Source: Dolichospermum sp. DET69 (lineage in GTDB: Bacteria > Cyanobacteriota > Cyanobacteriia > Cyanobacteriales > Nostocaceae). From it: DNA of 64,000 nt. The notes under the pieces are model-generated. The model was not told the DNA's origin, did no database searches, and worked only from the letters and a program-made list of their open reading frames with translations. The DNA is taken from NCBI GenBank assembly GCA_017355425.1, contig CP070233.1, forward strand, positions 598,501 to 662,500. The letters run 5' to 3'. Shown piece after piece: positions 19,030 through 39,562 of this stretch (the stretch's first letter is position 1; the number at the start of each line of letters is the position of its first letter). The position numbers and the translations under genes are program-made.

Positions 19030-19077
19030 AGTTCACCATAGTTCAATTTTTTTTTGGCTGTTGTTCAAGTTATTATA

Positions 19078-19507
19078 AGAGCATCCGGTAAGCGTAAAGC
19101 TCACTGGCACTTAGCCTGTGAGATACAAGCGACACGGGGGATTTTAATCCATGCGGTATGTTAGAATTAAATTGTGAGTAAGAACAAAAAACATCTACGT
19201 ATTGAAGCATCCTAGTCCGGAGAAATCCCGGCTCTTATGAAACAACGGTTAGGTTTAAGTCCTAACGGCAGTAAGACAAGAAAGAGCGAATAATGGCAGG
19301 TTGTGGAGCGTACCACATCTTGGCTTAGTGATGGATTCACAAAAACACTGAAAACAATAAAAGTAAGCGCAATTTCGACACTTTGATTAGCAGTTGTTTT
19401 GAGCGTTTAGGCGGCGTTTGACGGTCGCAGCAAGATTGGATTGGGCTAAACCCTTAATCTAATTCTGTTAGCAGAATCTCACAGGCTAAAGCCAGTGAGA
19501 GTGTCAA
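19078..19507 (+). mobile_element. tnpB-less IS605-type element keeping both ends
   Basis: 430 bp without a gene. The left end (ccggtaagcg, hairpin ctcactggcacttagcctgt gag at 19100-19122, then agcgacacgg and attttaatc) matches the left end of the tnpB element at 37620-39237. The right end (ggcgtttgacg, cgcag, gcagaatctca, hairpin 19478-19499, gagagtgtcaa) matches that element's right end over about 100 bp. Positions 19403-19462 still encode a TnpB C-terminal remnant (RRRLTVAARL against RRCLTNAARI). TTATA precedes the left end in both. It points into the pgeF upstream region. Confidence 0.8.
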
Positions 19508-19548
19508 TGATTAACGGTTGTTAATTTTCTGTTTAGGTTTGGTTAAAG

Positions 19549-24364: not shown

Positions 24365-24664
24365 ATGAATAACTCTGTTGGTAAAAGACTGGAACAATAT
24401 ACAGTCAAAAAATCACAAGAAGTTCTTATCGTCACTGTAGAAATTGATGATGAACCCGACCAAATTGCTGTGTTTAAAGGTTTTTCTAGTTCTTTAATGC
24501 GCCCTACTGCTTATGATCCAGATGTTCCTGTATTACCAGATACGGCTAAAATTATCACAATTGACCGCATAGCAAGTCCCTATAATCCAGACGCACCTCT
24601 TTATCTTCAACAAGATATTTCTTGGAAAGATATGCAAGTTTTATTATCAAAAGTTGGTGTGTAA
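24365..24664 (+). CDS. Conserved cyanobacterial hypothetical, 99 aa
   Basis: A small soluble protein without a recognisable catalytic motif. It begins with a basic segment (KRLEQYTVKK), has alternating strands (EVLIVTVEID, QIAVFKGFSSSLMRPT), and a proline-rich patch YDPDVPVLPDTA followed by ITIDRIASPYNPDAP. Codon use matches its neighbours and the protein looks like a real conserved family (possibly DUF7734-like, unverified). The stop is followed within 10 bp by the large heptamer array. Confidence 0.65.
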   Translation: MNNSVGKRLEQYTVKKSQEVLIVTVEIDDEPDQIAVFKGFSSSLMRPTAYDPDVPVLPDTAKIITIDRIASPYNPDAPLYLQQDISWKDMQVLLSKVGV

Positions 24665-24672
24665 ATTGGGAA

Positions 24673-25244
24673 CAACTGACAACTGACAACTGACAACTGA
24701 CAACTGACAACTGACAACTGACAACTGACAACTGACAACTGACAACTGACAACTGACAACTGACAACTGACAACTGACAACTGACAACTGACAACTGACA
24801 ACTGACAACTGACAACTGACAACTGACAACTGACAACTGACAACTGACAACTGACAACTGACAACTGACAACTGACAACTGACAACTGACAACTGACAAC
24901 TGACAACTGACAACTGACAACTGACAACTGACAACTGACAACTGACAACTGACAACTGACAACTGACAACTGACAACTGACAACTGACAACTGACAACTG
25001 ACAACTGACAACTGACAACTGACAACTGACAACTGACAACTGACAACTGACAACTGACAACTGACAACTGACAACTGACAACTGACAACTGACAACTGAC
25101 AACTGACAACTGACAACTGACAACTGACAACTGACAACTGACAACTGACAACTGACAACTGACAACTGACAACTGACAACTGACAACTGACAACTGACAA
25201 CTGACAACTGACAACTGACAACTGACAACTGACAACTGACAACT
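24673..25244. repeat. Perfect heptamer array (caactga), about 82 copies
   Basis: The 7-bp unit caactga repeats without interruption for about 572 bp, with no deviating copy seen. On the minus strand all three frames stay open and read the same heptapeptide LSVVSCQ, because 7 and 3 share no factor; these open frames are a by-product of the repeat. The array ends 20 bp before the cbiD start. The near-perfect identity suggests recent expansion by slippage, or assembly compression or expansion of a longer or shorter array. Confidence 0.95.
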
Positions 25245-26380: not shown

Positions 26381-26460
26381 CTTAATAAGAATTATCATAA
26401 TTACCCCAAATAAATATTTTTCAAACCCAAACTATGATTTACATGATTAATTTGTCTGAA

Positions 26461-27866
26461 CTATGATTTGCGTGATTAATTTGATGGAGATGATTAATTG
26501 ATCTGTGATCACGAGGAATCATCTAAGTCACAAAAATCACAGTTCTGAACTATGATTTGCGTGATTAATTTGATGGAGATGATTAATTGATCTGTGATCA
26601 CGAGGAATCATCTAAGTCACAAAAATCACAGTTCTGAACTATGATTTGCGTGATTAATTTGATGGAGATGATTAATTTATCTGTGATCACGAGGAATCAT
26701 CTAAGTCACAAAAATCACAGTTCTGAACTATGATTTGCGTGATTAATTTGATGGAGATGATTAATTTATCTGTGATCACGAGGAATCATGTAAGTCACAA
26801 AAATCACAGTTCTGAACTATGATTTGCGTGATTAATTTGATGGAGATGATTAATTTATCTGTGATCACAAGGAATCATCTAAGTCACAAAAATCACAGTT
26901 CTGAACTATGATTTGCGTGATTAATTTGATGGAGATGATTAATTTATCTGTGATCACAAGGAATCATCTAAGTCACAAAAATCACAGTTCTGAACTATGA
27001 TTTGCGTGATTAATTTGATGGAGATGATTAATTTATCTGTGATCACGAGGAATCATCTAAGTCACAAAAATTACAGTTTTGAACTATGATTTGCGTGATT
27101 AATTTGATGGAGATGATTAATTGATCTGTGATCACGAGGAATCATCTAAGTCACAAAAATCACAGTTCTGAACTATGATTTGCGTGATTAATTGATCTGT
27201 GATCACGAGGAATCATCTAAGTCACAAAAATCACAGTTCTGAACTATGATTTGCGTGATTAATTTGATGGAGATGATTAATTTATCTGTGATCACGAGGA
27301 ATCATCTAAGTCACAAAAATTACAGTTCTGAACTATGATTTGCGTGATTAATTTGATGGAGATGATTAATTTATCTGTGATCACGAGGAATCATCTAAGT
27401 CACAAAAATCACAGTTCTGAACTATGATTTGCGTGATTAATTTGATGGAGATGATTAATTTATCTGTGATCACGAGGAATCATCTAAGTCACAAAAATCA
27501 CAGTTCTGAACTATGATTTGCGTGATTAATTTGATGGAGATGATTAATTTATCTGTGATCACGAGGAATCATCTAAGTCACAAAAATCACAGTTCTGAAC
27601 TATGATTTGCGTGATTAATTTGATTGAGATGATTAATTTATCTGTGATCACGAGGAATCATCTAAGTCACAAAAATTACAGTTCTGAACTATGATTTGCG
27701 TGATTAATTTGATGGAGATGATTAATTTATCTGTGATCACGAGGAATCATCTAAGTCACAAAAATCACAGTCCTGAACTATGATTTGCGTGATTAATTTG
27801 ATTGAGATGATTAATTTATCTGTGATCACGAGGAATCATCTAAGTCACAAAAATCACAAAAATCAC
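26461..27866. repeat. 89-bp tandem repeat array, 16 copies
   Basis: Units begin at 26461, 26550, 26639 and so on every 89 bp; the ninth (27173) is 18 bp short, and the last starts at 27778. Each unit starts ctatgatttgcgtgattaat and contains ctgtgat and atcacag as inverted arms around cacgaggaatcatctaagtc. Copies differ by single bases (a/g in cac(g/a)agg, c/t in at(c/t)acag). A 48-bp direct duplication (27840-27938) follows. There are no unique spacers. The array abuts guaA and occupies its whole upstream region. Confidence 0.95.
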
Positions 27867-27954
27867 AGTTCAGACAATTATGAATCATCTAAGTCACAAA
27901 AATCACAAAAATCACAGTTCAGACAATTATCCTTAACGACACACTTTCTCTACC

Positions 27955-37619: not shown

Positions 37620-37760
37620 TTGACACTCTCAGGTCTAAAGACACTGAGATTCTGCGGACAGAGTAAGCTTAGGGCTTAATACCCAAAGTCTAATTCTCGC
37701 TGCGTTCGTCAAACAACGCCTACCCAGTAAGCCCAAGTCTAAGCTTAGATTGCTGGCTAC
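37620..37760 (-). ncRNA. Predicted omega RNA (right-end RNA) of the tnpB element
   Basis: In IS605 elements the guide RNA of TnpB is made from the 3' end of tnpB and the right end, with the guide taken from flanking DNA. Here that region overlaps the tnpB stop at 37635-37637 and ends gtcaa at 37620. It is strongly conserved with the right end of the tnpB-less element at 19078-19507. The 5' boundary is a guess. The guide would be the minus-strand sequence below 37620 (atattcacgaggtaggggcg). Confidence 0.5.
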
Positions 37761-38960
37761 TTTTCTTAAAATGTTCGCTGCACCATTTAAATCAGCGTTA
37801 ACAATTGAACCATTAGCGGACCGATACAATCCACGTTTAACGCGCTTACCTGATGCTTTCCACCCATCTGGTTTTTGACCATAAACGGGTAGGGAGTCTC
37901 CATCTAAGAAAGATGCTTTTGACGTATAAGATTCTTCGGTTTCTTGAAATCTAATCCCGTGTAAATCACATAATTGTTTTAATCGGTCTTTGAGTTTACC
38001 TAAAGGCATTTGAACAAACTTTTGATTGTTCAATCCACCCATATTAGCGTGAGATTTAAAGCCTTCATTCCAGCCAATGATTAATGTGCCAATGCCGTAT
38101 TTTAGGCAATGGTCAATAATTAGTTTTGCAGCTTTATTAACGCCATCTCGCATTTGATGATTGCGTTTACGGGTTACTCGGTCTAGCCAATTATCCCAGT
38201 AAGCTTCCGGTTTATTTTCTTTACGGGTTGATACTTTCTTGTTCCATAACTGATTCATTGCTTTCATCGCCCGAGCATCAATCAATAAAGAATTGCCCAA
38301 AGTATCAACACAAGCTGCTAAATTGTCAGCAGTTCCTAGATCAATTGATAAAGCTTGATTGATGTCTAAATCATGTTTTTGCCTCTCGACTTGGTATGAC
38401 ATTTCCAGATAAAAAGCCCCATTTTTTGGGGAGATCGTAAACTCTTTAACCTTTGAATAATCAATGTTTGAAGGCATTGTCAAGAAGAAATCAGAAATAC
38501 CAAACCATCGCCTAACAGTTGTTCCTAATGAAAATCTAAGTTGTCCGTTAATTAATGTCGGAGGCTGTCCTCCTGAGTTTGGATAAGCTACCTTAAATAA
38601 CTTAGATCCTGTTAAGTAATCTGGTACTTTAGGTTTAAAATGTAACTGACCTTTCAGAAATAAATCTCGCAACTCTTTAAAAGATTTAAACCCCTCTGCT
38701 ACTGACATTAGAGTCTGCTGCATCGGAACTGATGGCAAAGACTTAGCAACAAGTGATTTACTAATAGATTTTTCGTAAATCAAATCAAACTTGTTAGTTA
38801 GCAACTTTCCGGTTTTAAAAAATGTCTGTCTGGCAAAGTAAACACCACTATTATAAATCTTACCTGACTGTTGACAAAGATATTCCAATAATGCTTTCGT
38901 CTCGTTGTCTGGGGATAACAAAACTTGTTGAACCCCCATTGACTTCTTAATTTTAGACAT
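37635..38960 (-). CDS. tnpB: RNA-guided endonuclease TnpB (no zinc ribbon)
   Basis: A 441-residue TnpB/OrfB protein. RuvC residues are present: Asp207 in LSIDLGTADNLA, Glu299 in IIGWNEGFK and Asp390 in VNADLNGAANI, so it should be able to cut. The CxxC...CxxC zinc ribbon usual between the second and third RuvC motifs is absent; instead there is TEESYTSKASFLDGDSLPVY, a pattern I recall from a particular cyanobacterial TnpB subgroup. The ATG at 38960 follows cagg; an in-frame TTG is 15 bp upstream. The 3' end overlaps the element's right end. A palindrome and divergent gene lie upstream. Confidence 0.9.
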   Translation of the reverse strand: MSKIKKSMGVQQVLLSPDNETKALLEYLCQQSGKIYNSGVYFARQTFFKTGKLLTNKFDLIYEKSISKSLVAKSLPSVPMQQTLMSVAEGFKSFKELRDLFLKGQLHFKPKVPDYLTGSKLFKVAYPNSGGQPPTLINGQLRFSLGTTVRRWFGISDFFLTMPSNIDYSKVKEFTISPKNGAFYLEMSYQVERQKHDLDINQALSIDLGTADNLAACVDTLGNSLLIDARAMKAMNQLWNKKVSTRKENKPEAYWDNWLDRVTRKRNHQMRDGVNKAAKLIIDHCLKYGIGTLIIGWNEGFKSHANMGGLNNQKFVQMPLGKLKDRLKQLCDLHGIRFQETEESYTSKASFLDGDSLPVYGQKPDGWKASGKRVKRGLYRSANGSIVNADLNGAANILRKVASNLSLDLGLLGRRCLTNAARIRLWVLSPKLTLSAESQCL

Positions 38961-38973
38961 TGTTTCGACCTGC

Positions 38974-39006
38974 AATGTTGTGATAATATTATATTAGCAC
39001 AACATT
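38974..39006. promoter_or_regulatory. 33-bp near-perfect palindrome between tnpB and RHH gene
   Basis: aatgttgtgataatat and its inverted partner atattagcacaacatt meet at a central base; 15 of 16 pairs match. It lies 13 bp upstream of the tnpB start and 14 bp upstream of the divergent small gene, where both promoters must be. Size, symmetry and place fit an operator bound by a dimer or tetramer of the ribbon-helix-helix-like protein encoded next to it. Binding is inferred. Confidence 0.65.
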
Positions 39007-39020
39007 AGTAGATTGGATAT

Positions 39021-39155
39021 ATGTCTAGGAAAAAAGGTTCTATGGTTTATTTGTCCGAAAAAGACAAAGAAAAATTAGAGAGTATTGCTCAAAACTGGGG
39101 AGTCTCTCAATCGTCGGCAATACAAAGGTTGATTAAAGAATATAAACTAGAATAG
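39021..39155 (+). CDS. Small ribbon-helix-helix-like protein in tnpB element
   Basis: A 44-residue protein, starting MSRKKGSMVYLSEKDKEK, with a short beta strand (GSMVYLS) followed by two helices (EKDKEKLESIAQNWG and QSSAIQRLIKEYK), the CopG/Arc/MetJ ribbon-helix-helix pattern. Such proteins dimerise and bind palindromes with the strand. It is divergent from tnpB across a 33-bp palindrome and lies inside the element ends, so it probably travels with tnpB and represses it and itself. Short length makes family assignment tentative. Confidence 0.65.
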   Translation: MSRKKGSMVYLSEKDKEKLESIAQNWGVSQSSAIQRLIKEYKLE

Positions 39156-39562
39156 AGAATGTCACGGCGATTAAAATCGCCCGTGTCGCTTATATCTCAG
39201 GGCTTAAGCCACTGAGTTTTCCGCTTACCGAGTGATCCTATAAGTTTCTAACTATTCTCAAGCAACAAGAATCCTTGATGGTAAGGTAGAGAAGGCTTTT
39301 TGATGATTTGTGCTGGATGACAGCAAAATTTAACCACTAGAGCGCTTTGATTTTGAGTTAAAAAAAATCGTATGATCTGGCTAATTTCCCTATCCAAACA
39401 TTCTTGTTGTATGTACTAACAACATATACATCATCCAAAATGGATGTGGTTCGCTGCTTAGTCTATGGTTTGAATTCCAGACTCAGGAACGCAATGCGTT
39501 TAAGTAAGTTTACTAAAGCAGCTCGACAACTTAGATATTAATTTTTGAAATTGAGGTTAACC

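Follow-up and report, generated by a model that had tools for sequence, protein, structure and literature searches.

A protein-less IS200/IS605-type element of Dolichospermum carries a conserved structured RNA that may guide TnpB in trans

Trans-acting omega-RNA loci of the nuclease IscB were reportedly described in Ktedonobacter by Altae-Tran et al. in 2021. The guide of an IscB omega-RNA sits at the 5' end. TnpB trims its omega-RNA (reRNA) out of its own mRNA (PMC10278001). The RAGATH-18-derived reRNAs of IS607 TnpBs are structured RNAs that co-occur with an upstream tnpB (PMC11061315). The miniature inverted-repeat elements (MITEs) of Anabaena sp. 90 are classified as type II and are stated to have no evident similarity to the inverted repeats of the IS elements of that genome (PMC3542288). 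The entries listed by a literature search, taken together with passages of PMC10278001, PMC11870625, PMC3542288 and PMC10969869, did not describe a guide RNA in an element lacking tnpB.

The window analyzed here is a stretch of 64,000 nucleotides from Dolichospermum sp. DET69 (contig CP070233.1, positions 598,501 to 662,500), and all positions are counted from its first letter. It contains a 431-bp element without a protein gene (19077-19507), located directly 3' of the target tetranucleotide TTAT (19073-19076, plus strand), the putative TAM. The left end of the element comprises the end recognized by the transposase and the promoter region (19077-19173, plus strand), and can be aligned across eight full-length copies in the same genome. 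It is identical in 63 of 77 positions (82%, E 7e-16) to the left end of a tnpB element of the same end family (37620-39239, minus strand), which is a candidate source of the protein partner. The right ends of the two elements share 83 of 113 positions (E 3e-12). The alignment of both ends, noted in a first-pass annotation of this DNA, is thus confirmed, and the similarity of the right ends exceeds chance. The ends are IS605-like, as in non-autonomous IS200/IS605 elements.

Related elements keep T(T/C)AT and vary in the fifth base. Because of this variation and the fitting lengths of empty sites in sister genomes, we assign TTAT as the target and 19077 as the first base of the element; the same boundary rule gives the span of the tnpB element. 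The first-pass annotation had placed a 430-bp element at 19078-19507, of which the right boundary stands and the left boundary moves by one base. The 260 bases before pgeF were compared in 16 genomes of the genus that have this gene. The insertion is present in the genome of the window and in genome G002, and was not seen within the 260 bases in the other 14, one of which (L306) is half masked and some of which contain unrelated repeats. A clean empty site (L313) reads ...GTTAGCAT/TGATTAAAG..., and the occupied site in the window reads ...GTTATTAT/A...TCAA/TGATTAACG, with slashes at the junctions. At this one insertion, the element lies right after the short target without target duplication, and the length of the empty site fits the order TTAT, element, flank.

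No open frame of 80 amino acids is present within the 431 bp. TnpB queries had no match inside the RNA elements of the searched loci, in a search in which TnpA was not among the queries and the longest frame of a locus served, in several cases, as the query in place of a transposon protein. A readable C-terminal remnant of TnpB had been proposed for the right end. The short frame in question, FRRRLTVAARLDW, lies in the omega-RNA-like scaffold, and the RNA homology continues beyond the frame and explains it; we therefore reject the coding remnant.

The interior of the element reaches further among relatives than its ends, as found in a search of 120 relatives. Alignments of 16 diverse members, and then of 43, delimit a conserved RNA of about 330 nt (19174-19507). 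The right end is kept, as stated in the first-pass annotation, and the conserved stretch is considerably longer than the 100 bp given there. The RNA is composed of a 5' domain (19174-19359, plus strand), with a structured core at about 19190-19338, and a 3' domain (19360-19507, plus strand), which resembles the omega-RNA scaffold of TnpB and ends in a terminal hairpin followed by GTGTCAA. An extended -10 motif, TG-T-TAGAAT (19159-19167, plus strand), is positioned 6 nt before 19174, the RNA start predicted from this motif. In 38 of 43 RNAs the best -10 hexamer departs from TATAAT at one position at most, a score reached by about 30% of shuffles, and in 35 of 43 it is located 15-16 nt before an AGTA anchor, a fixed spacing that shuffles lack.

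The helices of the 5' domain were evaluated in 41 sequences and 32 named pairs, in which 91.6% of cells are paired, compared to 32-37% with partners slid. Two-sided changes affect 18 of the 32 pairs and amount to 55 cells, against 9.2 in shuffles, and none of 500 shuffles reaches 55. The covariation spans genera and families. Judged from these alignments, the first 160 nt or so of the RNA are a multibranched, covarying, new conserved domain. Single-sequence folding energies are not better than those of shuffles (z -0.99, 0.57 and -0.26), and the case for an RNA structure therefore rests on covariation. Of the alignments used, A1 excludes L073 and L092 (partial), A2 holds 43 of 70 distinct cores that are less than 90% identical to each other, A3 and A4 are made from these 43 sequences with two and six dropped, respectively, and A5 contains 30 chosen sequences, 15 RNAs and 15 tnpB.

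The window stretch has no match to an Rfam covariance model at E up to 1. For eight relatives, searched with E up to 5, the sole matches were two to snoRNAs, which lie outside the RNA and score below gathering, and 18 loci searched at the gathering threshold gave two tRNAs only. The 5' domain is thus an RNA structure absent from Rfam 15. HEARO, the IscB-associated RNA, and other Rfam RNAs were rejected as identities of the element, given the lack of an Rfam match and matches to IscB loci that are short or confined to the left end. A scan of genome contigs with a 21-23-nt motif of the 5' domain selected 57 stretches, 56 cyanobacterial and one haloarchaeal, and 51 of the 57 loci carry the model from the start region to the omega-RNA-like last positions. 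The haloarchaeal stretch, from Halorubrum (L144), contains the motif without a model match and is not counted as an RNA. Among viral contigs the motif had no match. Four elements of about 237-257 bp in the genome of the window (L234-L237) consist of a left end, a -10-like box and a directly joined 3' domain without the 5' domain, which suggests that the 5' domain is not strictly required.

The tnpB gene of the window (37635-38975, minus strand) encodes a 446-amino-acid protein of the RNA-guided endonuclease family (guided_TnpB NF040570, E 5.5e-46). Its D, E and D residues are invariant among 13 aligned sequences, that is, in this protein and 12 others, and presumably form the RuvC site. A sequence search for relatives in the PDB gave none at E 0.001. 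The omega-RNA scaffold region of the tnpB element (37620-37770, minus strand) overlaps the end of tnpB and is matched by positions 164-300 of the RNA model (nhmmer, E 6.1e-15, L047) and by R2, a covariance model trained on the 3' domains of standalone RNAs alone (E 5.3e-12). The RNA model matches tnpB elements of this genome only from about position 162 onward (E down to 6e-15), and its first 160 or so positions have no counterpart in them. One TnpB clade thus has an omega-RNA scaffold homologous to the last 140 nt or so of the standalone RNA. The standalone RNA is not encoded with tnpB and does not overlap a tnpB 3' end.

R2 finds 38 places in the genome of the window. These are eleven RNA elements (L001-L011), five further RNA elements (L228-L232), the four minimal elements L234-L237, eleven full-length tnpB elements of the clade of the window's TnpB, five remnants or fragments, and two weak matches (L266 and L267). 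All eleven full-length clade members of the genome are recovered, together with a fragment of a relative (L265). Among the other matches to PF07282, of which the genome has 53 in all, only L267 is found by R2, weakly (E 7e-4), and nhmmer aligns it in the terminal hairpin only. Since R2 finds this clade among the 53 matches, the scaffold belongs with one TnpB clade. When 15 RNAs and 15 TnpB scaffolds are aligned together, four helices are shared, with 85.2% pairing and 121 two-sided cells, against 43.9 in shuffles; the numbers of pairs with two-sided change and of further pair types do not exceed those of shuffles. The terminal hairpin of the window copy has a mismatch that is absent from the copy in G002.

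In locus L153 (2796-4526), the sole such case among the searched loci, a tnpB element that has an omega-RNA-like end of its own comes directly after a standalone RNA element. Divergent from the tnpB of the window, positions 39021-39152 encode a 44-amino-acid ribbon-helix-helix protein (PF01402, E 2.2e-4), with related frames in L050, L051 and L261; it is possible that this protein is a regulator in an element without tnpA. The window also contains long tandem arrays at about 24532-25242 and 26402-27930, built from a 14-nt repeat and an 89-nt repeat family.

The last 88 nt of 26 RNAs and 20 tnpB scaffolds, chosen by hand, were compared with regard to the target class; L246, L247, L252 and L254 have no target type. 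RNAs of the TYAT and TGAC types are 63-89% identical to tnpB scaffolds of the same target class and about 30% identical to others, and the matching scaffold is mostly, but not always, found in the RNA's own genome. All ten typed TYAT RNAs of the window's genome are nearest to TYAT scaffolds (63-83%; 28-35% to the least alike scaffold), and for nine of them the nearest one resides in that genome. TCAT RNAs lie nearest to TTAT scaffolds in six of seven cases, so that only the target class is matched and not the exact tetranucleotide. In Sphaerospermopsis NIES-73, the two TGAC RNAs share 79% identity with the TGAC tnpB scaffold of their own genome, whose RNA elements and tnpB elements have a common left end and target, and 82% with an untyped scaffold of G253. 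For the two RNAs of G301, identity to the scaffold of that genome is 82 and 88%. Co-residence is less regular in G194 and G302: L255 and L257 of G194 are 60-61% identical to the home scaffold and 70-71% to scaffolds of other genomes. The TGAC RNA of Scytonema NIES-4073 (L264) is 48% identical to the only tnpB scaffold found there and 81% to those of other genomes. Between the TYAT and TGAC types, the 5' blocks are 71-87% identical and the 3' block 39%.

A further RNA type is represented by L228-L232 in the genome of the window and L238-L242 in NIES-73, with the target TCAC in most readable copies and a scaffold that ends in GCAGAGTGTCAA. None of the scaffolds compared matches these RNAs, the best being 46-51% identical.

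The putative guide is the flank directly after the right end (19508-19527, plus strand, of presumed length). Independent insertions have different flanks immediately at the end of the 3' domain, and the sequence of the putative guide differs among them; it is unchanged in the G002 ortholog. The first-pass annotation had suggested looking for matches to the guide elsewhere. The genome contains no second target beyond chance, as the only other match has three mismatches and a reversed control pattern gave six matches. The first-pass proposal of two loci, with an RNA that could load in trans and read its guide from 19508, is supported by the homology of the 3' domain, the shared helices and the promoter motif, and also because scaffold type and target class agree for two element types. 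The new 5' domain, the number of copies and the spread across the order had not been anticipated there. The two-locus guide appears to be the best reading of these sequences.

The genome of the window contains eight near full-length copies of the 431-bp element, including itself, at 86-100% identity, then one partial copy and more distant ones. Both domains of the RNA model are present at 16 loci, L001-L011 and L228-L232. The search for more such ends, recommended earlier, thus reveals a family that is multicopy in this genome and present in relatives. Of ten stretches of G002, two of which begin at a contig end and have one flank that is not comparable, only the window copy is at the orthologous place. 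Copies at unshared sites of G000 and G002 are 97-99.7% identical, and we conclude that the protein-less family has moved recently. Genes for TnpA of the same end and target types are present in the genome of the window (C1:687091, 5815060 and 4667257), and TnpA accompanies both TTAT and TCAT elements.

The ortholog in G002 has an interruption of about 95 bp in its left end. Between it and the window copy, 5 of 334 RNA sites have changed, whereas the two flanking genes have changed at 24 of 230 fourfold sites (p 2.7e-6). Changes are equally rare in the left end (1 of 96 compared sites) and in other flanks (2 of 88), and the slowness is therefore not specific to the RNA. We do not take this ortholog as proof of selection on the RNA, which evolves more slowly than fourfold sites and not more slowly than nearby non-coding DNA.

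Model R1, which represents the 5' domain, has matches at E 1e-5 in 53 of the 243 genomes sampled from the order. At E 1e-8 it matches 28 of 386 genomes of the phylum, all 28 in the same order, a result for which the number of the 386 genomes outside the order is not given. Only the best 12 candidates per genome in the 243-genome set and the best eight in the 386-genome set were scored, and copy numbers are thus lower bounds. As far as these searches can tell, this is a new RNA family, widespread and with a 5' domain of its own. A member of the TnpB clade (E <= 1e-70) is present in 37 of the 53 RNA-bearing genomes and in 69 of the 190 others (Fisher p 1.8e-5, ignoring relatedness); the remaining 16 of the 53 have no TnpB match at this threshold.

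Carriage of the RNA by phages or plasmids was considered and rejected, with no plasmid match and one phage match that is limited to the left end and the final 44 nt or so. This match, in an Aphanizomenon phage (MG209611.1, 14468-14842, L326), is an element of about 375 bp with the same left end and right-end tail and no RNA scaffold. Other tnpB-less elements with the same ends, of about 378 and 470 bp, are present in the genome of the window (L014, L015, L016, L017, L020, L023, L024, L026 and L030). Their 3' region reads like the C-terminal and omega-RNA region of another TnpB clade. Other MITEs may also keep the scaffold of their TnpB clade.

In our view this is likely a non-autonomous transposon of the IS200/IS605 type whose only product is an RNA that guides TnpB in trans. 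Counted against this explanation are the 16 RNA-bearing genomes without a close TnpB, the TCAC-type RNAs without a matching scaffold, the irregular pairing of L264, L255 and L257, the untracked exact tetranucleotide within the TYAT class, the single-sequence folds that do not surpass shuffles, and the clean sister empty sites, which have GCAT, ACAT, GTAT or GGAT in place of the window's TTAT. The element probably borrows TnpA and TnpB from full-size relatives. Transcription would start at 19174 and run through the right end into the flank, so that the last 16-20 nt or so copy the DNA to the right. TnpA of full-size relatives would peel and paste the element, and TnpB of the 446-amino-acid clade would bind and trim the RNA. 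Following established IS605 biology, TTAT plus the flank would be the site to which this RNA directs TnpB. Loaded TnpB would then cut the emptied site, TTAT plus guide, and repair from a sister copy would bring the element back, just as autonomous IS605 elements are restored. A possible role of the 5' domain is to keep the free RNA stable or to bring it to TnpB produced at another locus.

A functional structured RNA that is not a working TnpB guide seems unlikely to us, whether it acts, for example, as a decoy or regulator by occupying TnpB or holding back TnpA, or is a regulatory RNA whose omega-RNA end is kept only for transposition. The foreign nature of the 5' domain with respect to the compared TnpB omega-RNAs, its higher conservation across types than that of the 3' block, and the RNA-bearing genomes without a close TnpB would all fit such a role. 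However, the 3' scaffold reaches about 90 nt beyond the 40 nt or so that are common to the right ends of other MITE families, covaries with TnpB scaffolds, and ends flush with different flanks. That the locus is an ordinary dead MITE, a deletion derivative with a right end kept for TnpA and a similarity due to recent bursts, is improbable. Bursts do exist, with at least eight equal-scoring copies in G510 and at least seven in G074, and the other non-coding DNA of the G002 ortholog is as conserved as the RNA. Such a derivative would not account for covariation across genera and families, a conserved promoter motif, the 160 or so model positions foreign to the tnpB elements of the genome, or scaffold types that follow TnpB types.

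A guide RNA for another effector, IscB or some other RNA-guided nuclease acting in trans, is the least probable of these explanations. The genome of the window has 16 RRXRR (IscB-type) matches, including fragments, as well as many other TnpBs, and the TCAC-type RNAs lack a matching clade scaffold. Yet the 5' domain does not align with IscB loci, the RNA belongs to no Rfam family, and its 3' homology is to a TnpB clade. Returning to the trans-acting TnpB guide, we speculate, with some doubt, that there are RNA-only selfish elements, whose sole gene is a structured guide RNA, in which an exchangeable 3' module fits different TnpB and TnpA hosts, the 5' domain allows loading in trans, and the element returns to its vacated sites with borrowed enzymes. 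Their types would be TYAT, TGAC and possibly TCAC or TTAC.

If the guide reading holds, the retention of transposons by TnpB would be open to parasitism by an element that needs a guide RNA and no protein, and the locus would provide a TnpB system that occurs in nature, has two components and is programmed in trans. About one fifth of the sampled genomes of the order would then have an RNA gene that is free of protein and structurally constrained, and the family would supply natural sequence data on the pairing of omega-RNA parts with TnpB and target.

The RAGATH-18 reRNAs are, like the RNA described here, conserved and structured, and were recognized as TnpB guide RNAs; they have an upstream tnpB, and the present RNA has no Rfam match. 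The trans-acting IscB loci of Ktedonobacter, like the present putative guide locus, have no adjacent nuclease gene, but they belong to another nuclease family, and the comparison with IscB loci revealed no homology. With the TnpB omega-RNA, the RNA shares a 3' scaffold with a UUUGAC-loop hairpin, a terminal hairpin at the right end, the position of the guide in the flank, the target class and the TnpB clade. It differs in being a standalone RNA apart from tnpB, with its own promoter motif, a 5' domain of about 160 nt and no coding overlap. As a transposon, the element has the properties of IS200/IS605 MITEs or PATEs, which are short, transposase-less and multicopy and have IS605 ends, and is distinguished from them by its conserved RNA gene.
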